Below, in pieces: positions 2,173 to 60,606 of a stretch of 64,000 nt of DNA. Made by a program: the position numbers and the translations under genes. Position 1 is the first letter of the stretch, and every line of letters begins with the position of its first letter. Source of the DNA: Henckelia pumila (taxonomy: Eukaryota; Streptophyta; Magnoliopsida; Lamiales; Gesneriaceae). A model generated the notes under the pieces. It did no database searches, had not been told where the DNA came from, and saw nothing but the letters and a program-made list of their open reading frames with translations. The stretch spans positions 6,820,001-6,884,000 of the forward strand of contig NW_027331831.1 in NCBI RefSeq assembly GCF_033568475.1, in the 5' to 3' direction.

Positions 2173-4572
2173 CTCTATATATATATATATATATAAAGTT
2201 TATTTGATTTTTTTTTGTCTTACTTTCTTTTTAATGACATTAGAACCCACAACCACTACTTTTCTATGCAAATTCGATAAATCTCTAGACTAACGTAATA
2301 CTCTTCAAACCACAGTAACCAGGTAAACAATACTAGACAGTTCTTCTATGACAGACTCGTCTGACAAAGTGTTAGTAGGAGAAATTGAAATTTTGACAAC
2401 TGAAAGTGTTCACCTACTCTACCAACTCGAATATACTGAGGAGTGATGAGACTTCTTTTGGTCTCACAAGTGGTTAGGTACCAACGACAATTAGTTTTTG
2501 TCCCTAGAAGACAAATTAAACGGGTGTCACATGGAACCCAATCAATTCCACTTCATTTTAATATTTTTCCTAACTTTATTTTGGTTTATATCAAAGCAAA
2601 CGGTGGAGCAGTTAAGTAACATAGTATTTAATTTCTTAACATTTTTTATATGTTGCATTTATATCAAATATATCAGGAAATTTTTGTTCTCTGACTCAAT
2701 ATCAATTTATTATCTTTTGATTCTTAATTTGTTTGATTACAATTATAATACATGGAGTAGCAGACTTGAATTTTTTATGTAAAAAAAAGAAGTTATTTGA
2801 TGATTAATTTATAAGAAATAGTTCAATAATTTGACATTTTTATTAAGTGTGGATGTCAATATGGTAGTATTAAAAAATAGTTATTATGACATGCATTTTT
2901 TAATTAAATGATCAGTGTGGGAGTATTTTAATTCTATCCTTTTACTTGAAAGTAATCAAAATAGGAAGTACTCTAAAGAATTTCTATTTTGAGAAGAACT
3001 TGAGCTCAATATTAGACAAAGTAAAGATGAGTAATTAATCAATGTGTTATTCCTTAGGTTAAGATCATGCATTTTTGGATTTGCCTAAAATACTCTTCAT
3101 CTTATCAAACTAACTGCATGGTTTTACCATGTTATAATAACATTTGTCTTTATATTTTATTTTTCTTTCTTGTCATTTCAATTTCAAAAATTAATAAGTT
3201 TAATTTTAAATTTTTTAAATATACTTCATTATTTATTTAGTTTTAACGGAACATATGTATTGTGTTTATCACGATTCGCTATTATATATGACAAACACAA
3301 CGATTGAAAACAAGTATTTATTTAAACAAAAAAAATTCTTGTGAGACCATTTCATAGGTTAATTTTGTGAGAAAGATCTTTTGATCGATCTGATAATAAA
3401 AAAAACATTACTCTTTATGTTAAAGTATTAATTTTGACTCTGTATATGGATCGAGTCAATCCGTCCGTGTCACAGAATACCTACACATAAATAATTAATC
3501 AGTGCATGTTAATTATACTTTTTGACATATATATATACATATATATATATATATATGTCAATAATAATTTGATTGATATTCGTTGAAAAATAAAAAATAA
3601 AAGCAAGAGATGGAGTACCAAACTATTATGCATGTATTTGGATATTTATTGGGAAAAGTAAGCACCATTGAAATTAATTAATAACAAGATTAAGATGCCT
3701 CCGAATTGGGCGCACATGGCTCAACTTATATCATAATTATTATTCCCACTATAATATATATCGTTTTGAGTTTTTGCTCTTACTTGATGTGATTAAACAA
3801 ATTGTGGAGTTTGTTCTTTTGAACATGCACGCATGCATGCTACTTTAAGTTTTCTTGTATATATTAACGTCAACATTAGTTATAAGATTAATTTTATTCA
3901 GCTAAAACTAGATTTAACCATTTCCCCTCTTCATTTATTGAATTTCATTTTCAATTTAATGCATATATGAAGCTATATCATGTGTATAACAAGGGATTTT
4001 CGACTTGAAGTCGATCCTCGTTCAGAATAAAATGTGACTTAGGTGTACTGTTTGACATTGCTTCCAAAAGACACTTGTGAGTTTCTTCTTCAAAAAAAAT
4101 TTCAAAATGTAAAAAAAAGAGCTCATAAACGCTTTTTGGAAACAATAAAATTTTATGAAGGAAACACTCTTGACGCGTTTTGGAAGCAATCTCAAACATC
4201 ATCACCTTAAATTAATTAACCATCATAGTTGATTAATACAAATTTTTTACTTTCAACTCTTGGATACAAAACCCATAATCATGGAGCTATTAATTTGTTC
4301 CGATCGAATCTAGTAATTTTTCAGGATATGATTATAATTCATTGACAGGAAATGAAAGACTAGCTAGTGTGGAGATTACGTCGATTAAAAAGGTCCATGA
4401 TCACCATATGTTGTATGTGGAGCAATCATTAAAACCAATCCAAATCCTATGATTAAATCTCATGATACCACCATCATCCCATGAATGAAGCAATCATTAA
4501 TTAGTTGCAGTCCTGAAAAAAAGAGTTTATGTTATACTGGGATAATTATTCATATATATATATATATATATA

Positions 4573-4920
4573 CCCGCACCCTAGGGTGCGGGGATATTTG
4601 GTATGTACCCGTGTTTAAAATAATTCCGATTGTTTTGAAATTTTTACTGTAGAATCTTCTCGAATATGCGAATCCAATGATGTATCATATGATACCAATT
4701 TCAATCACGATGACCGAAATCGTGAAAATGACCAAAAATTACAGATTTCACCCAATTTTCGGCCATCTTCACGATTCCGGCTACCGAGATTGAAATTGGT
4801 ATCATATGATACATCGTTGGATTCGCATTTTGAAGATGATCCTACTGTGAAAATTTCAAGACAATTGAAGTTGTTTTGGGACGTGAGTGCATACGAAATA
4901 TCCCCACCCTAGGGTGCGAT
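4573..4920. mobile_element. Foldback MITE with palindromic ends
   Basis: About 348 bases with terminal inverted repeats of roughly 150 bases each. The block CGAATCCAATGATGTATCAT near 4670 reappears inverted near 4810, as do the flanking ATGATACCAATTTCAATC and GGGATATTT blocks. Both extreme ends carry the same short perfect palindrome, CACCCTAGGGTG. It has no coding capacity. The left flank is a TA repeat, so a target duplication cannot be defined. The family is not recognised. Confidence 0.75.
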
Positions 4921-5392
4921 AGATCAAGTCTCTATATATATATGATGTAGGTGCGAACATCTTATAACAAAATAAAGGATATGGGTTCATTAATAGTTTT
5001 TTGTTTTACATTGAAATATTTATGCAAACATCTTATAGAAATTCACTATGAAGTAGAACTCTCGGTGTAGCTCCCGAAAAAGCAGTTGCTGCTGCTTAAT
5101 TTCATCGAAGATTTTAGCAACTTAATTTGAAACTCATGTTCATAATTCATTTTAGTCTCGTCCAATAATTGGCTAGGAAAAATATATAATTTTATATGTC
5201 TCAGAAATGAGTGCATGCATATGGTGCTTATAATAAAGAAACATATTTGCATGTGACCATCATCAAATCATATAATTAGTCAAGGCCCTTTCTAGATTTT
5301 ATATATTTCACCATACTTTAATTTATAAAATAAAATAAATGACCAAAAAAAGAAAAATTTATTAAGGAGCTAACTCTTCCCTATATAAAGTG

Positions 5393-5399: not shown

Positions 5400-5636
5400 A
5401 ACACAGATTCAACGAACAACCAACTGATGTTTGAATAAAAATCTATCACTATCTTTGTCTCTGTTTCATTCCTTTCTTCTTCATCACAAAATCTAACCTT
5501 TTTAAAACAACTGTTGACTCATTATTTATCATCAATATTATCAAATCAAATATATCCATACCATATTATATACATATATACTTGCTACTTGGTCTTTTTA
5601 TATAGCTACCTCTAGCTACACCTTGTTTCATTACTA

Positions 5637-6425
5637 ATGGATAAATCGAACAAGAGCAACTCGGCTTCCCCTTCCAAGATCAAACGGTCCAAGGCGAACG
5701 CCTCGGCGGATCAACCGCAAGAGTCCAACCGGTTTCTTGGCGTGAGAAGGCGGCCGTGGGGGAGGTACGCGGCGGAGATAAGAGACCCTTCGACCAAAGA
5801 GAGGCATTGGTTGGGTACTTTCGACACCGCCGAGGAGGCGGCCTTGGCGTACGACCGGGCCGCGCGATCCATGCGTGGCTCCAGGGCTCGAACCAACTTC
5901 GTCTACTCGGACATGCCTCATGGTTCGTCGGTCACCTCCATTGTCTCCCCCGACGAATCATACGGCCACCACCACCATCATCAGCAGCAACAAGATTTCG
6001 CCATCTTCGCGAATTCGCAACCGCGCCACCACCATCATCATGATGATCATCAAGAACACCACCACCAACACCAACACCACTTGCTTTTCTTTGGCGGAGA
6101 AAATGCGAATGATCACCATAACTACAACAACTATTTTCTCACTCACGGGTCTAATGCTGCTGCTTACATGGAGCAGCAGAATCATGAAAATGCCGACGAC
6201 GACGAGCTCCCGCCGTTGCCGCCAGACATTACCAGCAGCTGCTACTCCGGAGAGCCGCCGGTGGTGTTATCGGAAATGGGACACGGAGTTCTCAACGACA
6301 TGAGGTATCTTGAATTGGCGGGATCAGCTCCATACGATTTCGACGACTCCACATATACCAGCACCGCTGCTACTACTACTACTGCTGCTGCTTTCGCGTC
6401 ACCAAGCGGATATGGGTGGTTTTGA
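5637..6425 (+). CDS. LEP-like: ERF transcription factor, LEAFY PETIOLE / ERF086 type (AP2/ERF group VIIIb)
   Basis: Intronless 262-residue protein, expected to act in the nucleus as a DNA-binding regulator of lateral-organ or meristem development. A basic, serine-rich N-terminus leads to one AP2/ERF domain at about residues 33-90. The domain starts [20 protein letters not shown] and continues through [20 protein letters not shown], the ERF-type GCC-box-binding form. Directly after it come FVYSDMP and [12 protein letters not shown], and later [16 protein letters not shown]; these are marks of LEP and its close relatives. Residues about 109-152 are strongly histidine- and glutamine-rich. The C-terminus has a threonine/alanine run before GYGWF. 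The start is the first ATG after a clear leader. I am sure of the ERF family and fairly sure of the LEP subgroup. Orthology to a single Arabidopsis gene is inferred. Confidence 0.95.
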
Positions 6426-7844: not shown

Positions 7845-8038
7845 ATTGCGGGTTCGATCCTCGTGTGGAGCATATTCTCTTCTGAAATATTGTGGGATAT
7901 GCTCTGGAGTTGGACAATGTTGCTCCCTCTTTCAGGTCCATGCCGCTCGTGCACATCCCTCGATTTAATTTTCGCATGAGCCAATGAACATCTGACTTAT
8001 GTGGAATGAGGCCTCTTCGAGGTCAACCCTTTTTAAAA
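7845..8038 (+). mobile_element. SINE, 5'-truncated copy
   Basis: It begins just before a tRNA-type B box (GGTTCGATCC at 7851-7860) and then matches the body of the full-length SINE at 33276-33530 nearly throughout. Shared blocks include GCTCGTGCACATCCCTCGAT, CATGAGCCAATGA and the terminal GGTCAACCCTTTTT. The A-box half of the tRNA-like head is missing, as expected for incomplete reverse transcription. Clean target duplications were not found. Confidence 0.75.
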
Positions 8039-8939
8039 ACAAATATATAATATATTTTGGCGGGAACAAATATATTTTATGTTATGTATATTATAAAAAT
8101 ATTTTAGTTTATCCCTCGTAAAATATAATTTTCCCTCCTCATAGTCATACCCCATGATACCATTATTTTTTGAATGAAACAAAATAAGATTCAATAAAAT
8201 AAAACGATCAAATATTAATTTTAAAAATTACTCGTTATATTTCACACAAAATTTATTTTATATAAACAGATGCTTTTACGTTCAAGTTTGGTGCTCGAAA
8301 TGCATGCAAACATATATAATGGTTAAACATAAAAATCCATTTACTCGGTTATTTTTATTTTCTTCTCATTAATACGAATAAAAAGGAAATATATCACGTT
8401 TACTTTGGTGGGAGCATATAAACACTATATATAATAAATATGAAAACATTTATTTTTTGTATCGTGTAAGAACCCACAACCGCTACTCTTTCAATACAAA
8501 TTGAATAAACACTCGAATTTACGCAATCACCTTCAAAGTCATGCGTCTCATGCCCTCCATGCATATAAAGCTTAACTAAATGCAAAGCATCAGAAACTGA
8601 TAATTTCCAAATTTTCAAGAACAAAAATTAAGAAATGTTTTGAATCAAATGAGCTGTTATTCGTTCTGAAGATTTTTTTGGAAATATCATTGTTGATTGT
8701 AAACTGGCATTCACCAATAAGTAACCTGTAACTCATATCTGCTCTTGCAGTTCCTCGTTTTTTGAAGGCCAAATATTATAAACTCAGAAGAAAATGCTAC
8801 AACCTTATTAGTTAACAGAATGCCATTACATGTTTGGCCCGATGCACACTAGAAAACAATATCCTAAACCATCGCCTAAACAAACTATACCCTACTTAAA
8901 TGACAATATCTACAAAGTAAGGTTACTACGGAACCACAC

Positions 8940-11900: not shown

Positions 11901-14900
11901 TACCTTGCAAAAGCAGACTGTAGAGCAGGTGATGGAAATTTTGACTTTGTATTATTAAGAGCCATGAGGCGATCCTTCACTGGAGAAGTGAAAGAATTCC
12001 GTTCAACTAATACACTTCGGTACTCAGAGGACGTTTTTTTTGGGGAACGGATATCTCCATTCTGACCTGAGACAATCATTTTCAAGTATGTTGGAGCACA
12101 AGAACTATATACCATTCCAAAACATAAACGAAAATTAAAGAATGACAATGCTGAATTTTAATTGGGAAGTTAGTCTTCTAGTAACATCTTAAAAATAATT
12201 ACTTTCATTCTGACATATCTTGCAGCCAAAATACAAAATCATATAAATAAGTACCATGTTTTTCATGCTTTGGCACAGCAGGAGGGATTCCACAAGACAT
12301 ATCAATGTGCATGGCAATAGCATCAAGAGATGGCATAGGCTCTGCCAACAAGCCTAGTCGACTAATTTCCGCAGAAAAGGCTGGTCTTGCAACAATCAAG
12401 GTGTTGTACATTGATGAACCTTTTTCCCACACCATACTCTCCAAGAGTCGTTCTTCTAATGAGTTTAAATGCCTTCTAAGCTCCCTAGGAAGACTTTCTT
12501 CATGCCTGATGAAACTTTCTATAACCTTGCTGAGATCAAAAGCAGTAATTCCAGTTCTCTCCAACACAGTTGGAAATAACATCGTCACAGTTTTATGCGT
12601 AGCAAGAACGAGTTCAGCTGAGCAGGCAAGCATACATCTATGAAACCTCTCATTGGTCAGCAGAGATGTTAAATTGATTGCATGCAAAATCTGGGATTCT
12701 GCTGTGCACATCGCTTGAAGAACCCTGTAGTAAAGCTTCATTGCTTCCAGTCGACGTTGTTCAGCCCATATGTTATCCATCAAACTTGCACTTTGCCCTG
12801 GTCCACTACTTGGAAAGATGGCCTCAAGTATTATGTGAGCTCTTCTAATGACATCAGCAGTCACATCCCGATCGCAAGATGACAGGAATCTCTCCAGTTC
12901 TGCTGAAGGTTTTGATGGAAGAGGAGCTACAACAGTTCGTAACCATTTAGCAGTGGTCATAGCTGTGCTGACAGGTGTAGCCACAATTCTGGACAAGCCA
13001 GCGGCAAGAATTTCGTTCGAAGGACTTAGAGGAGACGGGTGGCAAGAAAGTGGACTTGTGACCGTCTTTGTCGGGGATGATACCAAGTCGAATTTTCTCT
13101 AAGCATGAAAGAAATTAGAATTTATAGACAGAAATTTGAGGTTTATGGAAACAGCGGAATAATTAATTAGAAAGAAACCTTGGTTCCATTTCCTCTCGTA
13201 TTTATTGAATCCCCAGAAAGGCTGCCCGAACCTAGCAAGCTGTCATCTTCATTGATGATTATTCTCTCATCCAATTCACCCTTATTGAGAATCATATCAT
13301 AATCCTTTTCTAATAACATCATATTAGTAGATAAAGATGATTCATCCATCAAATCTTCAAAATAGATCAACCCATCTGCACTTGGACATAACACAATATT
13401 AAATACTAGACAGTTCAAAGGACAGAATCCTTGGAAGAAAGCTACTGAATTGCCAACTCAATAGACCAACCCGTGACAATATTTTCCAAATTTTGGGGTG
13501 TACATTCAGCAGCCAAGCAAGCCCTTTTCTTCAATATAGTAGTTATCATGTCATTTGCTTTTTCCATCATTTTCTTCAACTCATCTTCCGAGGTCTCATA
13601 CATTTTGCAAAGTGATGCAAGTATGTCAGCTTTGCCATTTGTCATAACTGTATACAAAAGAAGAAATGGAAAGATGCCTTAAGCTATAATGTGATTCCAT
13701 CACCCAGTTCTAATTTTTAGGTAGAAAAAAAGGCCAAAAAAAGACTACCAAAGCGTTCAGAGTCATAAATATCAAATTTTCTGAACTGGGCAGGTACATG
13801 TATGACCAGTAATGCCTGCAAAAAAAATTTAATATGAAGCATTGTAAAACTACCAGATTCGACAAAAAGATCATGATAAGAAGATTACACTGTCCCCGAA
13901 GGTTGGGGCCAGAGCACACAAATATTGTAATTAGCATCTACTAGTACATATTACAGTTCTTGTTTTGTATGAGTAAGCACTAACATAATTGGAATTTAGT
14001 AAAATTTCAAAAAAATAAATATTAAAATCTACCAACCACTACAGAGGCTAGACCATTGGTGTATGTTACAAGGTCCTTGAAACGACCGAGCATATGCTCA
14101 CGCAGCGCCAGGAAAAGCAACCATCCAAAGCGATAATAGTTTGAAACACAGCCAGGGTTGTTGTCGCCAGTTGAATGCTTGTCACCACTAGCATCAACTG
14201 TCAAGAAAAATTGCTGATATGCACGCTTGTAATGCCTGGAATCATAGTACAAATATTGAATCAACTCAGGGCATCTATCCGTGCTAAACGTATGATATTG
14301 TCAGTGAAAAAGAATGTTGATTTAACAAAAGAGTATAGCATCCACTCTCTATGATAATATGGTCCTAATATGCATTGTTTTACTTTTTAACTGGGTTTGG
14401 AATTTTATTCTCTTGGGAAAGGGCAGGGGTTGTGCAGGTTGAACACCAAAGCTTCCGATGTTGCTAATGATTGACAGTCAGTACCATATAAGGAAAAAAA
14501 TTTCAGCTTATTTACTTTATGCCAAACAACTAATAAGTTATGTTGCACTGCTTAAATGATATCAACTTCATTTGATAAAAATATTTGGAAGACCAATGTA
14601 AGATTCAAGTATTATAAAGGAAACAATAAGGAATACTTTTATAGAATAATGAAATCATTCTCTGAAAACACGTAGAAAAATAATTCACCGAGACAACGAA
14701 ACCTGCTGAAACTTTGAAAATTGGCATAAATGCAAAAGAAAAGAAAGATAACATACTAAACAAATACCCACTTGCTCAAAAGGATCAAGTGCACAAAGTT
14801 GGTCTGTATTTCCTTTGCCTGATACCATAAAGAAGGAATGAATCATTAAAACATAGTCCCGGATTATACGGTGATGGTGTGAAACACGCTAACAAATAGA

Positions 14901-33275: not shown

Positions 33276-33530
33276 TTTTTTAAAAGGGTTGACCCCGAAG
33301 ATACTCCCTTCTACATGAGTCAGAGGCTCATTGGCTCATGCGGAGGGTAAATCGAGGGATGTGCACGAGCGGCAGGGACCTGAAGGAGGGAGCACATGAC
33401 ACAATCCCCAGAGCATACCTCACAATATTTCAGCAGGAAATATGTTCCACACGAGGATCGAACCCGCAACGCTGGAGAATTTCTTTCCACGTCACCTTAG
33501 GCCTTACCAACTCACCTATACCCGTCAACA
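33276..33530 (-). mobile_element. tRNA-derived SINE, full length, with target duplications
   Basis: A 255-base element on the minus strand. The RNA polymerase III A box (TAGGTGAGTTGG, 33507-33518) and B box (GGTTCGATCC, 33455-33464) lie at the 5' end, and the 3' end is CCCTTTTA-rich. Flanking 15-base direct repeats differ at one base: AATGGTTTGATTTAT at 33261-33275 and AATAGTTTGATTTAT at 33531-33545. A 5'-truncated relative lies at 7845-8038. The family name is not known to me. Confidence 0.88.
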
Positions 33531-46200: not shown

Positions 46201-49200
46201 ACAGAAATATATCTGAAACATCAGGCAAATGACAAATTTGGAAGATAGAGAAGTTCAAACAATTGAGAGAGAGCAGTCCACTTAAGCCATCTGTTTTTCT
46301 CAATCTCAATATGAGCAAACAAAGAAAATATTCAGGGAAATGAAATTTATGAACTGAACACTAAAATAAATATCGTCCAGTAACTTCAGCTATTGGAGCT
46401 GCAGAGGTAGTACCTTCATTGGTGGTTGAACTACTATTGGATTCAGTATTCTTCTTGTTCTTATCCTTAATTTTCTCATCAACGATGATGGATCTTGAGT
46501 CTCCGAAAGCTGTATAGTTTTGTGCAATGGTTAAGCACAAGGAAGAAATTTTAAAAGTCTCAAGCATAAAGATAAACAAGAAAACAGTGGTAGTATCTTA
46601 CGATTCAGGTATGTCAGTGCCACAACGAAGCAGATGTTGAAGAGAATAGAAAAGGCAAAGAGAGCAATGACACAAACCCAATACATATATTCCTCCGTAA
46701 ACATGCCCCGAGTTTTGAGAAGAACCTTGCCAACCGTAGGTTCAGAAAATCTTTGGTCGTTGTTCGGCTAAATAGAAAAACAAGAATGAAACTCAGGGAT
46801 CCGAATACAACTATGCAAATAATCGCACACTCAAGTTTACAATAAGAACTTACAGTGCTCCATCTCTTATCCAGAAATTCATTAATGGCTATAGCATTCT
46901 GGCCATACATCATCGGAGAAACGTAATAGCCCCAAATCATCCACGGTTTAATGTCATCTGATGTTAGTGATATTCGTTAAAACCAAAGAGAAAACAGCAT
47001 TCACAACGACGGGTAATTTGTGAATTCTAAATGCACCATTTATTAGAGACTGAGTTTGCTTTTGAAGGGAAGAGAATTAGATAATGTAGCTGACCTTTAG
47101 CGATAATAAAACCACCAAGAACAAACACCATGAGCAATGTGAAGGTACCCAAAGTGTTTGCAACAACCTGGGTTCTTCCAAGTGCAGCAATAAATCGGAA
47201 AAGGGATAAAGCCATCTGATGCAGTGCAAAAAATGCCAGTAATTGGCAGAAAAACCTGAAAGAGTCAGGTTGGAAACATTGTCACAAAAACAAATTAAAA
47301 AAACACATTGTTCATCTCTAGAGGAACATTAGAGCATACCTACTAGCAGCAGGAGCAAATCCAATAGTGTAATAAGTAAGAGCGACCCATATCAATGATT
47401 CCATGAGTGAAAGGGGAATCCTCAGAAGCCAAATGGGCAAAGAAAATGCCCAGGCAGGGTAAAACAAAGCATCCCTTTGTTTAAAGAACACAGGAAGTCT
47501 AACAATAGTCAACGCGAGCTCTGCGGTTCCATTAAACATAACGTTGATGAGGCTAAAAAACAGTGCACCATAAAATTTTCCTCCATCGGCTAACTGACCA
47601 TATTTCATCTCTGTTCTAAAGAATACCGTGAAGGCAATTATAGACATCACGGTTATCTGGAATGTCTTGAATATATACAAAAAGGCATTGCGTTTTATCA
47701 AGAGCCATTCCCTGGAAAGGCATGCCTTAAACAGTTCCATATTCGATATTCCATATCTATCAGTAACCAATGCAGCAGGATGAGCTTTAGTTTTATCGTA
47801 AGGGATAGATAGATCATCAAAAAGCTTCAGTCCAACATGGAAAGAGCTGAAGCGCTTTACAAACTCAGCCACTGAAATATATCTGTAAGGTTCATTTTTG
47901 TTAAACCAGTATTGTCCTTGATCTTTAACGGACGTAACCTCTTGTAAAAAATCTGCCACTCCTTTCCTCTCAGGGCACTTGAATCCGACACTCTCAAAAA
48001 ATTCGAGAATGTTTTCACGTGGACCTTGATAGACAATTTGTCCTTCAGAAAGCAAAATGATGTCATCAAAAAGCTCAAAAGTTTCAGGTGCAGGTTGAAG
48101 AAGAGAAATTATCATTGTCACGTCCATGATTTGAACCATCTGTCTCATGTACTTGACAATTTGAAATGTCGTGGAACTATCAAGACCAGTTGAAATCTCA
48201 TCCATGCAGTAAACTTTTGCTGGTCCAACCAACATTTCTCCTACATTCACAGCAACATTATGCAAAAGAGAGGGAAACTTGTCAAATTGGGTTCACACAA
48301 AGTAAATGGACAAGTGGAGCAACAAATTGTATTTACATATACCAGTTGTTAGCCTCTTCTTTTGTCCACCCGAGATTCCCCTTCTCATCTCGTCTCCCAC
48401 CATTATATCAGCACATATATCTAACCCAAGAATCTTTATTCGAGCAAAAAATGACACACTGTTAATTAGATGACTGCTTTGATTGGCTAGTTTAAAAGAA
48501 CATGAACTTGCTAATAGAAGAAAAATAAACCTTAAGAGCATAATCTGTTACGAGACTGGGTTCTTGACCTGGTACTGATATGGCTTTCATGAATGCATCA
48601 ATTTGAGGATCAGGTTTAATCCCTGCCTCCTTTTCTCTCCTTGACAATTCTGCTAGGAGGTCATATCTGGTTCCAACCCCTAAGCAGCGTCCCGAAAAGT
48701 TTAACGTCTCTCTAACAGTCATCTCTCCATGGTGAAGGTCATGCTGGCTAATATATGAACAAGTTCTTTGGGGAATGAATTCAGACATTTCATGACCACA
48801 ATACGAGATTCGTCCACTGACCTGTTCAAAAAGTTTCAAGTAAATCATGAATTTTGGTAATCCCAAAGAATTGAGGAGATTTATGTGAAAATGAGACCAA
48901 GAACCACACACCCTAAGATCTGTGTCTAGCTTTCCAGCAAGCGCCTTTAGTAATATGGTTTTCCCAGCTCCTGGAGGTCCAAGCAGCAGGGTCATCCTAA
49001 CAATTTTAAAATAAACATGTCCATAATTTCAATCAGCTGTGCATGCCATTTAAGTAATAAACCAACTAAATTGTTTTGGTGTGGCGAAATGAACCAAGCA
49101 TCAATGTAAAGTTGAACGCGCACTTAATAAAGAAACTCAAGATCTAGAAAACCAAACCTTGAAGGTTTTACAATCCCACTAACATCATGAAGAATCTTGA

Positions 49201-50015
49201 CAGCCCTCTTCGTAGAAGGGATAATCCTCAGCTTTTCAAAAATCCCCTGTTGGCCAAAAAGAACAATCCCTGTTTAGAAAGTGAATATCCATTTATATAC
49301 ATTCCAATATTACTATTAGATGAATTGCTTTTTAGAAGTGCATGACAAGGGACAAAAAAAAAGGACTAAATACCTCCAACACGTTCAAAGTAGAGTTCAG
49401 CAGAGTGGGAAGTGCCCTTGATCCAGCAAATGCATCACCTTCTACTGAAAGATGCTCGAACCGAACTTCTACTTTAGGAATGTCGATTCCCACCCTGATT
49501 AACAGTAAACCAGCACTTCAAAACTGAACTTGGAACTAAATGAAAATATAAATTGATACCCTCTTATTCGAGCAACAATCAACAGAGCCATAAAACTTCG
49601 ACAATTATTATCCCAACCTATCTGTTCGATCCCTTAGCCTGTGCAGAAACCTCTCATTATCTTCCACAGCTTTGAGCATGTATTCTGTGAGATGCCTCTT
49701 ATCTTGAATTCCAAGATTAGCAAAATCTACCTCCTCACGGACAACCTTTCCATCATCCAACACTTGCTCTAGAATACCTCTTCTCATACGGTCCGTTGTC
49801 GGTAGCCTCTCAATGGCAGCCCACATAAGTTCCTCATGATCATCATGATCTCTCCCACTTCTTTGAAAAGCATCCTGCCCTGCTGCAGTGAATACTTCCC
49901 TAACACTAGCAGAAGCCCAACTTCTGGTGCTGACTGAGGCGAAACTGATCCGCCTGCTGGTCGAACGTCGGCTTAGGGACCTTGCGGCTACCATGTCATC
50001 CGGAGCAAGAGCCAT
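43212..50015 (-). CDS. Full-size ABCG transporter, pleiotropic drug resistance (PDR1/TUR2/ABCG39-like)
   Basis: Plasma-membrane ABC exporter of the plant PDR family, typically moving terpenoids, hormones or other lipophilic compounds; the substrate here is unknown. Twenty exons join in frame to 1470 residues: 50015-49618, 49494-49374, 49246-49158, 48996-48912, 48821-48531, 48433-48343, 48240-47340, 47255-47095, 46957-46854, 46767-46602, 46509-46414, 46104-45965, 45727-45395, 45252-44962, 44864-44781, 44596-44463, 44395-44168, 44091-43920, 43848-43594, 43484-43212. The order is NBD1-TMD1-NBD2-TMD2. NBD1 has [11 protein letters not shown] and [16 protein letters not shown]2 has [39 protein letters not shown] and [15 protein letters not shown]. 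The end is [23 protein letters not shown] and [20 protein letters not shown] place it near PDR1/ABCG34/39 rather than ABCG36. An in-frame ATG at 50054 would add 13 residues. Confidence 0.95.
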
Positions 50016-51843
50016 TTTTTCTTCACAATGAAAACTCACCCCTTTGCTCTTCAATTCCTAGAACTACCTCTCCAAATCAAATCCTTACCCCGATTCTTCC
50101 ACACCGAAGCTGCAGAGAAACATCACCCCAAAAGCGAAAATCAGACCCACCAATTCATCAATATCAAAGATAAAAACTTTTCCCACTTAATTATTGGTTA
50201 TAATATCGTTTCTTTTACATTACAAGAAAGCTTAAAACTTCCGCAACGTAAATGTTGAAGTTACTTCTGTGCCCATCAAGAAAAATAAAATAAAATCGAG
50301 CATATTATTTACTGAACGCTCAAGCAAAGATGACACAAAAGTTCCAACAAAAAGACCACCACATGAATGATTGTTCTGTCAGAACAACGTAAAACTGAGT
50401 TCTTGATTAAACAAATCCGCAGAAACTAATATCCTTAGTACTTACATCACAAAGGGGCTGCATATTGGCTGGAATTTGGCACAATTGCATGAAAATATTC
50501 TTTAAATGGGGTGCTATACTTTTCTCGGCACAAGTGGAACACCGAGAATTATTAAAAAAAGTCCATGCACTCGGGGTGGTTGCCTAATGGAATTGTAGTT
50601 CTCTGGGACATCACAAATATTTAATTTATGACAGTATAATGGCTACAAATGTTTGACAATTGTGGGAACGCTACATGATTTAATTAGCCCACAAGTATTT
50701 GGAATTATTGAACTTATTCCATGCTTTTACATTGTTTGTGTTGAATTATATGGGATGAACATAATAAAAGTCTTTGGCAATTGGCAAAATTGTTACTTAA
50801 CCCATTGAAATTAATCTAACACAGTTGAAATTTTCAAATGTTTTATCAAAAAAAAATAATAATAATAATAATAATAATAACAATAAACTCATTCAATCGT
50901 CTTTACGGAAAATAATCTGCTGGCAAAAGTGCAGTGCCCGTCTGCCAGAATCAACGATCCCAGATGATGTGCAGATCAATTGATTTGATCTGTAGATCAA
51001 TTTGATTCATTGATCTACCCTTCGGATAGCCAACCCTAAAGGCAGCATAAATAGACTCCGTCTTTACATACTTGATGTCCGGCATATATACACCAAGGTT
51101 CAATTTTTAGTTTTCTTCATAGTATGCATAATTATCATTATCATTTCAATATAATGAACTTCTTATATCTAGCGTGCATGCTTTCAAAAAACATACTTGG
51201 TAAGTTGGAAATACAATAATGGTTTGAATTTAATCTCTAAAAACAATAAATCGTGTGTATCTGTTCAACGTAAAAAAGATAGTCTTAGGATCTCTGATCT
51301 ACAAGCAGTTCCCTCGAGCAAATCCCACTAGTAAAAATACCACTAGAATATTTCGATCGTGTGCACAAATGTGATAATGTGTATTTTGTTCATTTCTGTT
51401 TGGCAACTGTGGGTCTTGGCACATATTCAAATATTATATATCAAATGATATATTTTGAGATAAGATTTTTGATAATTCTAATACTTTAATTATGATGTAT
51501 TTAAAATATCAAATGAGTAAATGATCAAGAGAATATCCAATAATAATAAATAAAGAAAGAAAAGTAAAGAAATAGACCATCTAGAAGGCTAAACATACGA
51601 GACAACTACTCGGAATACGACGTCGTGGACTCCACATGTGAAAATGTGCATGTGAATTGTGATACGTATAAATTTCGTGTGGGCCATATTTAAATTGATA
51701 TTAATCACCACCAAATTTGACCAAATATGGAATTTCGTTCGTTTTAAATCATGTTCGAAGACCGTAGGTTCGACTTCATCCTACCGGCTACCATCAATGA
51801 TATCACATTAGCTCACTCTCAAAAAAAAAAAATTATGATATCA

Positions 51844-51888
<45 letters not shown>

Positions 51889-52729
51889 TTAGAATACATT
51901 AAGATCTAGATTCATGAGTAGATCACCGGTCGTTGTCTCACTTATGTTTACAACCGAACTAAATCGAGATGAATAGTAGTAAAAAATTGAAATTCGAGTT
52001 CGGCTTGAATTAAGTATATTTGAGTTCGAGTTCGATTCGAAATTCGAAAATTTCAAATATTTTGGTTCGAATTTGGCTCGAAATATTTGATCCTATACGT
52101 GAGCTATTATTCAAACTATTGATCGGATACTAAAGTTCAAGAAATTCGTTCGAAAGCTCAAAATGTTCGAAATGTATATATATTTATTATATCATTATAT
52201 TATATTAATAAAATATTAAAGCTCGCAAAATATTGAACTGACTCGAGTTCGATTCGAAAAAAGTTCGAAAATGTTCGGGTTCGACTCGAGTTCGATAAAT
52301 TCGAATACGGATTAAATATTTATCGAGCTGACTCGAAAAGCTCGTGAACCGACTCGATTCATTTACACCCCAAATCTCGCCTCATATAATAACCAATGAA
52401 AAATAATATTTTTGGCATAAAAATTCTACTTTTTCATAGATTAGGTTGAACAGGAGATTCGTCTTACAAAATTAACTTGTGATGTGGTTTCATAATAGTT
52501 TTTGTCTAGATTTAATGGACAATTTTGATAAGTTGTTTAACCCATTTAAGATAGTGTAAACTATAACTGATAAAAAGAAAATAGATTAATTCAATCTTGT
52601 GTGTGTGAGAAACTTCATATTGAATACAATAATTAATTTTATTTAATTTTTATATCCCAATATAAAAATTTTATAATTGCAAAAAAATAATAATTTATAT
52701 AATTAATCTATATAATTGATTACGTGAAT
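50016..52729. other. PDR promoter and repeat-rich spacer
   Basis: No gene seen. The first kilobase is the PDR promoter and leader side. AAT/ATT triplet runs lie at about 50856-50881 and 51843-51888. A fragment at about 51745-51835 (TAGGTTCGACTTCATCCTA, ending in an A run) resembles a SINE 3' part. About 51960-52377 is a degenerate repeat full of TTCGAGTTCGA-type words. It ends CGATTCATTTACACCCC, like a hAT-type MITE terminus; its left end is not clear. Confidence 0.5.
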
Positions 52730-53346
52730 TTATTATCTTTACTATTTTATAAAATATGAGAGGTACATAAAAACTATCGTGAGGACACCAACTTTATTAT
52801 TTCCCATTTTATCATTTTCTTTTGAAATTACTTTTACATTTTATATATATTACACATTCTTCTTCACGATCTCTTCCACGCTTCTCTTCCAAACTTCTGC
52901 TCGCTTCCTTTCATTTCAATCGACGGCTTTTACACTCTCATCTCATCACGTTCCAAGCAAACCGCTTTCACGTTCTTCTCTCCCCATTTCTAAATTCTAC
53001 ACTACCCACCCCACCGTTGTCTCTCTCCCGATCTTCTTCCTCTTCGCATCTAATTCCTCTTCTTACCATTGTCGGTCCTTCTTGCCGCCGTTCTACCTCC
53101 ATCGATCGCCGAAATTCGAACATAAATATACCGTTGGAAAGCTCTCGACGAGATCTATCTTTTGATTCCGATTTCGAACGGTTTTATCGCGATCTTTGAA
53201 AACCCGCCGCCGCTTCACCGTCGATTTTCATCGCTGTAAGTTGGCGGAAACTCAAAATTGATTGATGGGTTTTGTTCTTCATGTCATAAGTTTCGTTTTG
53301 ATATCAAAATTTTATAGAAAACTCACGAGATTATAGTTACGGTGAA

Positions 53347-53669
53347 GGAAAAATTGCATATATCGCCCTTGTGAAACCCCAGATTTGCTGATAACCCCCT
53401 ATAAAAAAATTTAAGCTAATAACCCCCTGTGATTCTAGATTTGTAGCAAACACACCCTTTTCAGCTAAAAATAACGAAAATACCCCTACATAAAATAAAT
53501 GATAAATTAAAGAGTTCATAAAAGTCAAGGGTATTTTCGTCATTTTTTAACCAGGAGGGGTGTGTATTCTATAAATCTAGAATCACAGGGGGTTATTAGC
53601 TTAAAAAAATTTCATAGGGGTTTATCAGCAAACTCGAGATTTCACAAGGGTGATATATGCAATTTTCCC
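53347..53669. mobile_element. Foldback MITE with 9-bp target duplication (Mutator-like), left arm only
   Basis: A 323-base element that folds back over most of its length. It starts GGAAAAATTGCATATATC and ends GATATATGCAATTTTCCC. TACGGTGAA flanks it on both sides (53338-53346 and 53670-53678). The corresponding place in the right arm (near 60015-60023) has one uninterrupted near-copy (TACTGTGAA), so that site is empty. The 9-base duplication points to the Mutator superfamily. A relative lies at 59621-59902. Confidence 0.88.
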
Positions 53670-53835
53670 TACGGTGAAATTTCAAGTGCCGCGCTGCCTT
53701 GCTGCCGCCGCCGTGGTTGATCGGAAAATATTTTGAGTTCGAATCAAAGTGGTATGAGCAAATGTGCATCCTCTTATATTTTTAACGCATTTGTAATTTA
53801 TTATATTATTATTACTTGGTCAATATTTTCTTCAG

Positions 53836-56471
53836 GAAATAACAAATGGTTCGTTGAGATGATCCTGCTGTACAAGAATCTGATGAGAGCCATTTTCTTA
53901 GCAATCTTCATCTCTTTGATGTCATCGCTGTTATAGTCAAGTATTTTTTGGTTTTGTTTCTTATCTCAACATAATTTCACACCGACTGATGTTTACATTA
54001 ATTAAACACAATTACTTTCTTCATAGGAGATTCGGATGATATTCCACAAGCATTTTGTGATTTATGTTTTATTACTGTGTAATTAATTAGTTTCAAGCTT
54101 TGACTCAAACTTCTTATTTATGATTTTGAGTTAAATTTAATTTCAGGTTTCTCGAATTGTTGTCTAAAATATATGTTTGTTAATCTTTGAAGAAGATATT
54201 GAAGAATATGATGTGTGTTAATGTATCTAAACTCACAAGTTTGAGAATGGTGAAGTATAATATATGAGAAGTTACATCTGGAGCATACTTGACTTCTAAT
54301 TGATCACATCTTCCATGGGTTTATGTTAATTTTTTAATCACATCTTCCATGGGTTTATGTTAATTTTTTCAATTATGATTTTTTTTCCAATGTCTGCTAA
54401 CTTATATGTAGTATGCTAACATTTTGAAGATTCGTGGTTTGAAATAATCTTTTTATCCTTTTCTTATTTATGTCCCTGTTTTATTAGACTATCGAGTTTC
54501 ATGAATGACATAATACTGAGTTTATATATGTTATCAAATTTATGCACAAGTTTATGTTATCAACAACTATGTCCTTTCAATTATGAGCCAAAGTACAATT
54601 ATTATTTTAGACGTTCAATCTCAGCATAATTTTATATCATAGCACACTTATTATTACACATGTTATGCTTAATATTCATGTACATCTACATATTTCTATG
54701 TTCAATAGGTAATTGGTTTTTCAATATTTTTCTGTCTACACATTTTTAGATTGGATGGGTTTTTAAATTTAAGTACTCTGATATATAGGTTGAATGAGTT
54801 TTTACATTTAATTGCTCAAATTATGTCCTTGGAAGAGGTAAAACTTGGAAATTTTGGGGAGGATGCGAAGCAATATCATGCTATGCAGACGGAACTCTGT
54901 CGAGAATTAGACAAGGTAAAGAAACTATGACTACTGAACTATTTTTTATTTTTTGGAAATTATTTTAGCATTGTTTGGAATTTCTTGCTGAATTTGCTAA
55001 ATCTCTTTGGTCTATAAATCATTAGAAAAACAGTAGGAGATGATTAAATACTACATCTTATTTTTTAAAATATAATGTTTTATATTGATTTTTTTCAAAC
55101 TTAGCATTCGTTATTATTATGTTATTTTCTTAAAATGATAATAATAGTTAATATTGTTATTATTATTGTTGTTTACTTTAAATTTCTACTTAATATGCAT
55201 ATCAAGTTTAAAATATGAAAGTTAAGAGTGAGAATCATAAAAAATCTATTCTGATTATAATTACTTATCCATCAGTTTAAATCACATCTTATTCGTACCA
55301 ATAGAATCATAATAAATCGGAACAAATCTATTCTTTTTTGTTTCAACCATTTTAAAAAAATGTTTAATGTTTTAAATTACTTCTTAAAAATATTAGACAT
55401 TTTTTAATAATAATTTTAGCTTCCCACCCAATCCGCAATTAGGAATGACAATGGGTCGGTCTAAACCCGGCCCCGCATTGAACCCGACCCGGCCAAGCGG
55501 GTTCACATGTTGGCCGGACCTGCCCCGAACCCGCCCCGTTGTCATCCCTATCCGCAATTGAAGTTTAAAATTTGAAAATTACTTCAAAATAAAAATTAGG
55601 AGAGATAATTATAAGAGTAGGAACAAATCTGAACTGATTTTTCAATCAGTTTAGATTTTAAACCATGGATATAATCTATATTTTCAAAAGAAAATATATT
55701 ATAATTTGAAAATTATTTACATTTCAAATATTTATCAGTTTGCATATTGTTTTCTCATATTTAATGACCAGAATTTGTTCTTATCTCTTGCGATTCTCAT
55801 CCGTTAATTTCAAAATTTAAACTCCATACTTATTCTCCTACATTGCTAAGCAATTCCATATTTTTACTATATTTACTATCTTATTTACTATTTACTGTTT
55901 ACTATCTTCTCCACATTCTCTCATTCCCACGCTATCCATCAAGAGTTTCTTCTCTAAATTCCCACTCAATCTCCCAATTTTCACGCTTCTGCTCGCGGCC
56001 TTCAAATCAACCAACAGTTTGTACTTAGATCCTACTTTTCTTCTTCTTAATGTTATTGTTGTTTTGATTATTCAAATGAGGTTCATGAGGTTTATTCATT
56101 GTACCAACAGTTTTGGTTCGTTTTGTTTGAACTATTTTTAAATGTGAATATGGTGGATTTTTTTTGTTCCCGTTAATTTTAAAGAAAGGCATAGCAAAAC
56201 GAAGACATATAGAAGAAACAACATTGTTCAGGTACATATGCGTTATAGTTGAAAGAAAAAAAAAATCTTGCTTATTATGGCATTATACTCTTGCATTTTT
56301 ACCCTTATTTATATATTGACAGGAAAAAAAATCAGACCTGCCAATGATATTGACATAAAAACGGTACTACATAAATTACATATTATTCTTATTGAATATT
56401 ACTTCAATGTAATAGAATAAATTCTCAGTTTATAATTGTTATTCCTGCAGTTTTACGAGCGTCGCAAATAA
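53836..56471 (+). pseudogene. Fragment of an unrecognised gene, left copy
   Basis: Short exon-like blocks with GT-AG borders lie in order in the left arm. They include ESDESHFLSNLHLFDVIAV (about 53880-53940), GDSDDIPQAFCDLCFIT (about 54029-54082), a 42-codon block at 54789-54915 (LNEFLHLIAQ to CRELDK, ending at GTAAAG), GIAKRRHIEETTLF (about 56184-56231), KKIRPANDIDIKT (56323-56363) and a terminal FYERRK plus stop (56451-56471). A leader-like stretch with a GTAAGT border near 53235 stands upstream. An in-frame stop in the first block is shared by both arms, so the source was already broken, or that block is not translated as read, before duplication. I do not recognise the protein. Confidence 0.5.
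55440..55550. mobile_element. Small hAT-type MITE, left arm only
   Basis: A 111-base element. It starts TAGGAATGACAATGGG and ends GTTGTCATCCCTA, a hAT-style terminus. The 8-base direct repeat TCCGCAAT flanks it (55432-55439 and 55551-55558). Its interior is GC-rich (CCCGACCCGGCC-type words), unlike the surroundings. The matching site in the right arm (near 57985) is uninterrupted. Confidence 0.85.
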
Positions 56472-56653
56472 GAAGACAAGTTTTGAACAATTGATTCAAA
56501 TAATTATATCTCATGTTTATGAGATATACATTTAATAGTTTTATGTCTAGCTATTATAAATATGTGAAAATTAGGGGATAAAAAATGTTGTAATGTGAAG
56601 GTGAAGATGAATATTTTTTCTTTCAATATTTTTTTAAATAATGGTAGCTATTT

Positions 56654-56694
56654 AATCTATGCAAACATAAAAAAACCAATAAATGATTTAAATT
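56654..56694. other. Spacer (loop) of the giant inverted repeat
   Basis: About 40 AT-rich bases between ATGGTAGCTATTT and AATAGCTACCAT, the innermost pairing ends. No gene or element. The symmetry axis is near 56674. Confidence 0.9.
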
Positions 56695-56869
56695 GAATAG
56701 CTACCATTATTTAAAAAAATATTGAAAGAAGAAATATTCATCTTCACCTTCACATTACAACATTTTTTATCCCCTAATTTTCATATATTTATAATAGCTA
56801 GACATAAAACTATTAAATGTATATATATCTCATAAACATGAGATATAATTATTTGAATCAATTGTTCAA

Positions 56870-59560
56870 AACTTGTCTTCTTATTTGCGACGCTCGTAAA
56901 ACTGCATGAATAACAATTATAAACTGAGAATTTATTCTATTACATTGAAGTAATATTCAGTAAGAATAATATGTAATTTATGTAGTACCGTTTTTATGTC
57001 AATATCATTGCAGGTCTGATTTTTTTTCCTGCCAATATATAAATAAGGGTAAAAATGCAAGAGTATAATGCCATAATAAGCAAGGTTATTATTTTTTTTT
57101 TCTTTCAACTATAAGCGCATATGTACCTGAACAATGTTGTTTCTTCTATCTGTCTTCGGTTTGCTATGTCTTTCTTTAAAATTAACGGGAACAAAAAAAT
57201 CTACCATATTCACATTTAAAAATAGTTCAAACAAAACGAACTAAAACTGTTGGCACAATGAATAAACCTCATGAACCTCATTTGAATAATCAAAACAACA
57301 ATAATATTGAGAAGAAGAAAATTAGGGTCTAAGTACAAACTGTTGGTTGATTTGAAGGCCGCGAGCAGAAGCGTGGAAATTGGAAGATTGAGTGAGAATT
57401 TAGAGAAGAAACTCTTGAAGGATAGCGTGGGAATGAGAGAATGTGGAGAAGGGTTACTTCAATCCTACCCCATGGGCATTACCCCATGGGGTAGGTGGAA
57501 CTCTTTTATTAGTTCAAATCATAGGGGCCCCACATCAATCATGTGGGCCCCGCATAATTTGACTATTCATGTGCTTCCACCTATCACATGGGGTAAAACT
57601 CATGTGGTAGGATGAAATTTTTCGTGGAGAAGATAGTAAACAGTAAATAGTAAATAAGATAGTAAATATAGTAAAAATATGGAATTGCTTAGCAATGTAG
57701 GAGAATAAGTATGAAGTTTAAATTTTGAAATTAACGGATGAGAATCGCAAGAGATAATAACAAATTCTAGTCATTAAATATGAGAAAACAATATGCAAAC
57801 GGATAAATATTTGAAATGTAAATAATTTTCAAATTATAATATATTTTCTTTTGAAAATATAAATTATATCCATGGTTTAAAATCTAAACTGATTGAAAAA
57901 TCAGTTTAAATTTGTTCATACTCTTATAATTCTCTCTCCTAATTTTTATTTTGATGTAATTTTTAAATTTTAAACTTCAATAACGGATTGGGTGGGAAGC
58001 TAAAATTATTATTAAAAAACATCTAATATTTTTTAAGAAGTAATTTAAAATATTAAACATTTTTTTAAAATGGTTGAAACAAAAAAGAATAGATTTGTTC
58101 CGATTTATTATGATTCTTTTGGTACGAATAAGATGTGATTTAAACTGATGGATAAATAATCATAATCAGAATATATTTTTTTATTATTTATATGATTCTC
58201 ACTCTTAACTTTCATATTTTAAACCTGATATGCATATTAAGTAGAAATTTAAAGTAAACATTAATAATAATAACAATAATAATAATAATTATCATTTTAA
58301 GAAAACAAACATAATAATAACGAATGCTAAGTTTGAAAAAAATCAATATAAAACATTATATTTTTAAAAATAAGATGTAGTATTTAATCATCTCCTACTT
58401 TTTTTATAATGATTTATATACCAAAGAGATTTAGCAAATTCAGCGAGAAATTCCAAACAGTGCTAAAATAATTTCCAAAAAATAAAAAATTGTTCAGTAG
58501 CCATAGTTTCTTTACCTTGTCTAATTCTCGACAGAGTTTCGTCTGCATAACATGATATTGCTTCGCTTCCTCCCCAAAATTTCCAAGTTTTACCTCTTCC
58601 AAGGACAGAATTTGAGCAATTAAATGTAAAAACTCATTCAACCTATATATCAGAGTACTTAAATTTAAAAACACATCCAATCTAAAAATGTGTTGACAGA
58701 AAAATATTAAAAAACCAATTACCTATCGAACATAGAAATTTGTAGATGTACATGAATATTAAGCACAATATGTGTAATAATAAGTGTGCTATGATATAAA
58801 ATTATGCTGAGATTGAAAATCTAAAATAATAATTGTACCTTGGGTCACAATTAAAAGGACATAGTTGTTGATAACATAAACTTGTGCATAAATTTGATAA
58901 CATATATAAACTCAGTATTATGTCATTCATGAAACTCGATAGTCTAATAAAACAGGGACATAAATAAGAAAAAAGATAAAAAGATTATTTCAAACCACGA
59001 ATATTCAAAATGTTAGCATACTACATATAAGTTAGCAGACCTTGGAAAAAAATCATAATTGAAAAAATTAACATAAACCCATGGAAGATGTGATCAATTA
59101 GAAGTCACGTATGCTCCAGATGTAACTTCTCACATATTATATTTCACCATTCTCAAAATTGTGAGTTTAGATACATTAACACACATCATATTCTTCAATA
59201 TCTTCTTCAAAGATTAACAAACATATATTTTAAACAATAATTCGAGAAACCTGAAATTAAATTTAACTCAAAATCATAAATAAGAAGTTTGAGTCAAAGT
59301 GTGAAACTAATTAATTACACAGTAATAAAACATAAATCACAAAATGCTTGTGGAATATCATCCGAATCTCCTATGAAGAAAGTAATTGTGTTTAATTAAT
59401 GTAAACATCAGTCGGTGTGAAATTATGTTGAGATAAGAAACAAAACCAAAAAATACTTGACTATAACAGCGATGACATCAAAGAGATGAAGATTGCTAAG
59501 AAAATGGTTCTCATCAGATTCTTGTACAACAGGATCATCTCAACGAACCATTTGTTATTT
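56870..59560 (-). pseudogene. Fragment of an unrecognised gene, right copy
   Basis: Mirror copy of the left-arm gene fragment, read on the minus strand. It keeps the same blocks: the LNEFLHLIAQ to CRELDK exon at about 58640-58514 with two or three residue changes, the KKIRPANDIDIKT block and the FYERRK plus stop block. The shared stop near its start is kept. Both copies point toward the palindrome centre. The product is unrecognised. Confidence 0.5.
57452..57623. mobile_element. 172-bp MITE with 9-bp target duplication, right arm only
   Basis: The ends are imperfect inverted repeats: one reads GGTTACTTCAATCCTACCCC and the other, inverted, AAAAATTTCATCCTACCACA. Both continue into TTACCCCATG and AGGTGGAA. 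GTGGAGAAG flanks it at 57443-57451 and 57624-57632. The left arm has a single copy of this word (inverted, 55906-55914). A 9-base duplication suggests a Mutator-like element. Confidence 0.85.
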
Positions 59561-59620
59561 CCTGAAGAAAATATTGACCAAGTAATAATAATATAATAAA
59601 TTACAAATGCGCTAAAAATA

Positions 59621-59902
59621 GGGGAAATTGCATATATCACCCTTATGAAATCTCGTGCTAGCTAATAACCCCCTGTAAAAAAATTTTAAGCTAATAACCC
59701 CCTGTGATTTTAGATTTGTAGCATACACACCCTTTCTGGCTAAAAAATAACGAAAATGCCCTCGACTTTTATGAACTATTTAATTTATCATTTATTTTAT
59801 GTAGGGGTATTTTCATCATTTTTTAGCTGAAAAGGGTGTGTATGCTACAGGGGGTTATTAGCTAACACAAAATTTCACAAGGGTGATATATGCAATTATC
59901 CC
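59621..59902. mobile_element. Foldback MITE with 9-bp target duplication (Mutator-like), right arm only
   Basis: A 282-base relative of the element at 53347-53669. It shares GAAATTGCATATATCACCCTT, TAATAACCCCCTGTGATTT and the mirrored second half. The flanks are CTAAAAATA (59612-59620) and TTAAAAATA (59903-59911). The left arm at about 53770-53780 holds a single uninterrupted copy, so that site is empty. Confidence 0.85.
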
Positions 59903-60606
59903 TTAAAAATATAAGAGGATGCACATTTGCTCATACCACTTTGATTCGAACTCAAAATATTTTCCGATCAACCACGGCGGCGGCGGCAAGGCGGCGCGGC
60001 ACCTGAAATTTCACAGTAACTATAATCTCGTGAGTTTTCTATAAAATTTTGATATCAAAACGAAACTTACGACATGAAGAACAAAACCCATCAATCAATT
60101 TTGAGTTTCCGCCAACTTACAGCGGTGAAAATAGACGGTGAAGCGGCGGCGGGTTTTCGAAGATCGCGATAAAACCGTGCGAAATTGGTATCAAAAGACA
60201 GATCTCGTCGAGAGCTTTCCAACGGTATATTTATTTTCGAATTTCGGCGACCGGTGGAGGTAGAACGGCGGCAAGAAGGACCGGCAATGGTAAGAAGAAG
60301 ATCGGGAGAAAGACAACGGTGGGGTGGGTAGTGTAGAATTTAGAAATGGGGAGAGAAGAACGTGAAAGGGGTTTGCTTGGAACGTGATAAGATGAGAGTG
60401 GATAAGCCGTGGTTGAAATGAAAGGTAGCGAGCAGAAGTTTGGAAGAGAAGCGTGGAAGAGATCGTGAAGAAGATTGCGTGATATATATAAAATGTAAAA
60501 GTAATTTCAAAAGAGAATGATAAAACGAGAAATAATAAAGTTGGTGTCCTCAAGACAGTTTTTATGTACCTCTCATTTTTTATAAAATAATAATAATAAA
60601 GATATA

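Follow-up and report, generated by a model that had tools for sequence, protein, structure and literature searches.

A giant palindrome in the genome of Henckelia pumila (Gesneriaceae; assembly GCF_033568475.1) goes back, judged by its sequence, to a non-autonomous Helitron of which two copies are joined tail to tail as an inverted dimer; both outer edges carry a 5′ terminus, and a 3′ terminus is absent. The palindrome is explained in kind and unusual in form. It lies in a window of 64,000 nt that constitutes the whole stretch of DNA analysed here (contig NW_027331831.1, hereafter C77; C77:6,820,001-6,884,000), where it consists of arm 1 at 52736-56659 (plus strand, 3924 nt) and arm 2 at 56660-60602 (minus strand, 3943 nt). 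Each arm is read as a Helitron copy with its sense direction pointing inward and its 3′ part missing, and each begins with the TC of a Helitron 5′ terminus, found at 52736 in arm 1 and, on the minus-strand read, at 60602 in arm 2.

Comparing the window with itself gave one dominant inverted pair, with outer edges at about 52.7 and 60.6 kb and a centre at 56.66-56.69 kb. When four insertions private to one arm are left out, the arms are 96.5% identical, differing at 120 of 3412 aligned positions (3.5%) and by 18 gap events. The longest perfect run shared by the arms is 206 nt, as against 12-15 nt in 20 mononucleotide shuffles, which places the palindrome far beyond chance. Perfect runs of at least 21 nt cover 2620 of about 3480 nt per arm with the inserts left out; in this figure, as in the CpG and transition-context figures given below, the outer edge of arm 2 was set 8 nt too far out. 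An earlier note, made by a model from the letters of the window, had described arms of about 3.9 kb, about 97% alike, around a spacer of 40 bases. Self-comparison, arm alignment and the shuffle control bear out the palindrome and the size and likeness of its arms, while the spacer measures 29 nt (56660-56688).

The four private insertions are miniature inverted-repeat transposable elements (MITEs). Arm 1 holds a foldback MITE at 53347..53669, flanked by a 9-bp duplication (TACGGTGAA), and a small MITE at 55440..55550, which we take to be hAT-like, with an 8-bp duplication (TCCGCAAT). Arm 2 holds a small MITE at 57452..57623 with a 9-bp duplication (GTGGAGAAG) and a second copy of the foldback family at 59621..59902, whose 9-bp duplication ((C/T)TAAAAATA) has one mismatch. 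All four are missing from the related copy at C2:13.09 Mb (L021), and the copy at C2:171.10 Mb (L022) lacks the two that fall inside its match. The foldback family has hit each arm once, and the two 9-bp duplications differ in sequence. A folded or chimeric contig is an extremely unlikely source of the palindrome, even if palindromes are hard to sequence, as passages of one report state (PMC4057610): the arms have diverged to the extent given above and lie between different flanks, two MITEs, with separate target duplications, are peculiar to each, and the palindrome is more than 1 Mb away from a further match on its contig, at C77:8.06 Mb.

Helitron identity of the arms

In a search of the genome (884.7 Mb in 133 contigs), an arm 1 query (53670-56659) gave at least 76 match rows, of which 5 come from the window; as the best 40 of 364 candidates were scored, this count is a lower bound. 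Among the matches listed, 34 other copies, about half of the non-window rows, match the inner part of the arm. We fetched 20 regions and examined 17 copy sites in 16 of them, the other four being without an inner-end match. The other copies are single-arm, with both window arms aligning to one and the same place in each. A common tail continuing beyond the window’s axis is present at 16 of the 17 copy sites, and at 14 of the 17 CTAGT lies within the stretch read, usually preceded by a GCACACGC...GCGTGTGC hairpin; a stricter pattern of hairpin and CTAG fits nine 3′ ends. The exceptions are L034, which diverges at once, L026, which has CTAA, and L030, where the end is not reached or is changed. 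A hairpin followed by CTAG, as in these sister copies, is the canonical form of a Helitron 3′ end in the passages concerned of two reports (PMC13286980, PMC4778049). At the eight sites with both points mapped, the tail from the arm 2 break to CTAG measures 191-196 nt. A foldback or MULE-type transposon with long terminal inverted repeats was considered and rejected, the other examined copies being single-arm and ending as Helitrons. A head-to-tail array occurs at one locus, L023 (C2:144,077,500-144,086,000), where three Helitron 3′ ends point the same way and are followed by almost identical bases.

The part common to the 3′ portion of other Helitron copies occupies 56161..56659 (plus strand) in arm 1 and, by alignment to those copies, 56657..57197 (minus strand) in arm 2. 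The Helitron_like_N domain (Rep; PF14214) has at least 156 matches genome-wide, some in open frames of more than 1100 residues, and among the matches listed it lies upstream on the same strand in 8 of the 34 inner-part copies, seven times at 3308-3363 bp and once at 4217 bp. Two of these eight (C1:81.47 and C3:88.20 Mb) agree both in spacing and in the pieces matched, and one of them may be a duplicate of the other; the remaining 26 copies have no upstream Rep match among the Helitron_like_N rows listed. The arms and the Rep-bearing Helitrons have their 3′ portion in common, and the arms resemble a non-autonomous variant. The dimer lacks a 3′ hairpin with CTRR and a host T, its axis falling about 195 nt short of that point, and we therefore class the locus as Helitron-derived and not as a complete Helitron. 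Canonical plant Helitrons (Helitron1 type) resemble it in the 5′ TC and the apparent A/T target, in the 3′ hairpin and CTAG of the sister copies and in the near-constant distance of the Rep match in some of them, but differ in form, the present locus being an inverted dimer in which the 5′ end occurs twice and the 3′ end is lacking.

The 5′ terminus of arm 1, a host A followed by TCTTTACTATTTTATAAAATATGAGAGGTAC..., spans 52736..52775 (plus strand), and that of arm 2, a host A followed by TCTTTATTATTATTATTTTATAAAAAATGAGAGG... on the minus read, was placed at 60555..60602 (minus strand) by terminus comparison. Arm 1 and the C2:171.10 Mb copy, and arm 2 when read inward, all start, after an A, with TCTTTA(C/T)TAT...TTATAAAA...ATGAGAGGTAC, and the C2:13.09 Mb copy, whose terminus is shortened, starts with TCTTTACTATTTTA followed by a gap; the flanks of these copies differ. 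These two C2 copies are the loci besides the window that have the 5′ region at 91-94% identity (best 40 of 152 candidates). Five weaker rows of the same search (71-82%) start at query positions 90-96, equivalent to window 52729-52735, beside the terminus. Similarity between the arms ends at the terminus, between A and TC, on both outer edges, and both arms have a host A before the 5′ TC. In the 40 nt outside the TC, identity is 12-15/40 in five pairs, where random 40-nt pairs from the window have a median identity of 11 and a 95% level of 17. BLAST of the 600-nt flanks against each other gave nothing at E-values up to 0.01. The flanks read TTATTA before the element and TATACA after it, as would be expected for an insertion between A and T.

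Because similarity stops at the TC ends and the flanks are unmatched, the doubled unit is the element and not a segment of chromosome. An ordinary chromosomal inverted duplication, through a break and fold-back or a gene duplication, of a segment that held the Helitron should have carried flank along; it is very unlikely and already largely refuted, with arm similarity ending at the 5′ terminus on both sides and no match between the 600-nt flanks. What speaks for it is the combination of an unduplicated spacer and a short inverted microhomology, the signature of human fold-back duplications in the passages that describe them (PMC3907307). The likeness extends to the length of the microhomology, 2-8 bp in 13 junctions in those passages and 3 bp here, but the human spacers given there are 766-70,466 bp long and the doubled units are chromosome segments, whereas here a loop of 29 nt joins copies of a transposon unit.

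The earlier note had also seen in each arm a leader-like block and exon-like blocks, and had offered an inverted gene duplicate, a proposed starting point for MIRNA genes, as an origin. A leader-like block does exist, at 52933..53346 and on to 53671-53746 (plus strand), but it recurs in other Helitron copies, namely at C3:30.06 Mb, C4:31.96 Mb, C66:292-294 kb (three in tandem) and C1:106.74 Mb (best 40 of 152 candidates), and Helitron-like 5′ ends were recognised by eye beside the copies on C3 and C66. The three tandem copies of this leader part of the Helitron 5′ region on C66 (L047-L049; C66:292,391-294,421) lie about 874 bp apart. Capture of a promoter with its first exon may have given rise to the block. 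As for a host gene as its source, the search found further copies and identified no host parent gene, and this candidate was set aside. As to the exon-like blocks, one counted frame of the stretch that contains them (53671-56659) has 68 stops, and seven arm fragments have no Pfam match at E-values up to 10, with no recognisable transposase piece among them. One arm fragment of 35 residues gave a single match to solved structures, a capsid-protein fusion at an E-value of 0.025, which we take as chance, and Rfam has 0 matches in the window at gathering thresholds. An inverted host-gene duplication or nascent MIRNA gene was rejected on the evidence of the dispersed Helitron family and the absence of Pfam matches in the seven fragments; the arms belong to that family and are not an inverted duplicate of a host gene, and a captured host fragment inside them is possible.

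The axis and the origin of the dimer

At the axis, alignment of the break region places a junction microhomology, CTA (TAG on the other strand), at 56657..56659, common to both arm ends. The 29-nt spacer that follows (56660..56688) is part of the arm 2 copy, which extends some 31 nt beyond the point of the element at which arm 1 stops. The last bases of arm 1 are CTA, a triplet also found in copy L033, and the complement of arm 2 starts with CTA, so that a 3-bp inverted microhomology closes a loop of 29 nt. With a 311-nt query across the axis, the axis is spanned at the window only among the matches listed (best 40 of 64 candidates). The other rows are one-sided, ending at query positions 109-149 on the arm 1 side or beginning at query positions 138-177 on the arm 2 side, with the junction at 138-140 of the query. 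The dimer as a mobile unit in its own right was rejected, no second axis junction being present among these matches.

A fold-back within one transposition is the probable origin of the dimer. In this model the transferred strand would have started normally, at the 5′ TC, and stopped some 195 nt short of the 3′ terminus. The 3′ end of this strand (TAG) would have folded back, paired with a CTA lying about 31 nt upstream and served as a primer, from which the complement of the strand was synthesised as far as the 5′ end. This product of double length would then have integrated between a host A and T, after which the arms diverged and each gained two MITE insertions. For Helraiser, passages of PMC4778049 describe the 5′ end as essential and the 3′ end as not strictly so, with truncated or read-through 3′ ends arising, and count de novo ends in 39 of 395 bat copies. 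According to part of another report, Helitron transposition uses a single donor strand, yet the donor must be double-stranded (PMC5876387); since one donor strand is used, the strand that folds in the model would be the transferred strand. The 3-bp microhomology is compatible with fold-back priming and is not proof of it.

The relationship between the arms bears on whether one event or two produced the palindrome. Over the inner part, the distance between the arms is 2.2%, as against 5.4-9.1% to 12 other copies, and a tree joins them as sisters with support 0.996. In the outer part, compared with two long relatives and with the MITEs left out, 8 informative sites join the arms, versus 4 and 1 for the alternative groupings. 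Plant substitution rates are of the order of 7e-9 or 1.3e-8 per site per year, at which the arms, if they began identical, would have diverged for about 2.6 or 1.4 million years. Arm 2 is about equally near to the C2:171.10 Mb copy and to arm 1, which suggests that the arms split at about the time when the variant was spreading. This timing fits a dimer made in transposition; two near-identical insertions with a central deletion would also be possible.

In that second account, two close Helitrons inserted independently in opposed, tail-to-tail orientation, and a deletion then removed both 3′ ends and any intervening host DNA, leaving a near-symmetric centre. We regard this as possible but less probable than not. 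Helitron copies do cluster, as the three same-orientation 3′ ends at L023 (C2:144.08M) illustrate, a central deletion joined by microhomology would look alike, and the sister signal of the outer region is weak. Opposed self-insertion with loss of the inner termini has moreover been proposed for Fusarium Helitrons in passages of PMC5148889. On the other hand, the arms are well-supported sisters in their inner part, and the account needs insertions of two sister copies together with deletion ends that fall within about 31 nt of one element position.

Several observations weigh against a fold-back dimer of the kind proposed. The sister signal of the outer part is modest (8:4:1), and arm 2 differs from the C2:171.10 Mb copy by 3.3% and, over a longer site set, from arm 1 by 3.6%. 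A microhomology of at least 3 bp arose in 9.5% of 20,000 simulated junctions and is not rare. Among 30 loci, no inverted pair of at least 250 nt was found in the family part outside the window, so the process that would form such dimers is not shown to recur. No single long-variant copy with both ends intact occurs among the copies, and the unit was assembled from overlapping ones; C2:13.06-13.09 Mb may plausibly be one complete single copy that later insertions have split. At the outer edges, two weak rows (73 and 75%) of the 5′-end search cross the left edge, and the 40 nt outside the two termini are identical between arms 1 and 2 at 20/40 positions, above the 95% level of 17, which we read as AT-rich chance and which is far below the identity just inside the termini. 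Finally, a 700-nt right-flank query, beginning 8 nt into the flank, matched itself alone in the genome and yielded no empty site.

Other Helitron-related structures resemble the dimer in part. The Fusarium composites formed by self-insertion share opposed copies and lost inner termini, but they are Helitron2-like and were invoked to account for reversed open reading frames, and the passages concerned contain no whole-element palindrome (PMC5148889). Maize Heltir elements are Helitron-related sequences with inverted terminal repeats that are said, in passages of PMC3422177, to resemble Helitron 3′ termini; there the repeats are 3′-like, whereas the dimer has a 5′ terminus at either end and its repeats make up everything that is left of the element. 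Our literature search, in a library with few subscription papers, turned up no account of a Helitron palindrome that takes in the whole element and has a 5′ end on either side. If the dimer did arise by fold-back in a single transposition, the locus would be a fossil Helitron transposition intermediate, in which a strand that ended early folded back before integration. It would then bear on how Helitrons terminate and on how transposons become long hairpins that feed plant RNA silencing.

Hairpin RNA and the present state of the locus

The palindrome had been put forward as a candidate regulatory locus that might give hairpin RNA from its inward-pointing arms. The geometry is indeed right for a very long hairpin RNA if the axis is transcribed, although the origin lies with a Helitron dimer and the sequence gives no sign of regulation. 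The CpG observed/expected ratio is 0.98 and 0.93 in the arms and 0.76 in the whole window, with 1.34 in the left and 0.66 in the right flank, and there is no CpG depletion in the arms. Transitions between the arms number 10/297 in CG and 50/1448 in CHH contexts and are somewhat higher in CHG (15/236). Neither the CpG ratio nor the substitution contexts in the arms give a clear signal of long-term methylation. Because CpG is undepleted and CG transitions are no more frequent than CHH, we consider that the locus today is most likely an inert relic, any hairpin RNA being a by-product of read-through. Nothing in its letters indicates that the palindrome regulates anything.

A more active role can be formulated for either origin. 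In the ‘Helitron killer’ reading, transcription through the axis of the fold-back dimer would yield a hairpin longer than 3 kb, and the resulting small RNAs would match the 3′ portion of Rep-bearing Helitrons and silence the family in trans through that common portion. The hairpin geometry, with the extent of perfect runs given above, would suit such a role, and at least 34 other copies contain the inner 500 nt or a part of them, a Rep match accompanying 8 of these copies. We nevertheless think it very unlikely, as the arms are without CpG depletion and no piece of a transposase can be recognised in the seven arm fragments. Among working systems, the nearest parallel is Mu killer of maize, an inverted duplication of transposon sequence for which passages of PMC3440606 propose a hairpin RNA of about 4 kb. 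The likeness lies in the inverted duplication of transposon sequence, and the differences lie in the transposon class, in the absence of a transposase segment from the arm fragments searched and in the fact that the present locus is known from sequence alone. Were the ‘Helitron killer’ to exist, an abortive transposition product would have created a silencer of its own family.

Other features of the window

Frames of an ABC transporter occupy 47318-50057 on the minus strand, with ABC2_membrane at 47318-48292. The most upstream listed frame starts at 50057, about 2.7 kb from the left edge of the palindrome, and the dimer may sit in the 5′ neighbourhood of this gene. Ordinary plant genes are represented by a frame with a Retinoblastoma-A domain at 12205-13098 (minus strand; E-value 1.1e-65) and one with an AP2 domain at 5616-6425 (plus strand). 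Self-inverse (foldback) stretches at 4550-4945 and 1985-2195, with 78% and 85% identity respectively, are perhaps MITEs, and an inverted pair of about 195 nt (7846-8039 and 33276-33469) is 85% identical across a distance of 25 kb.

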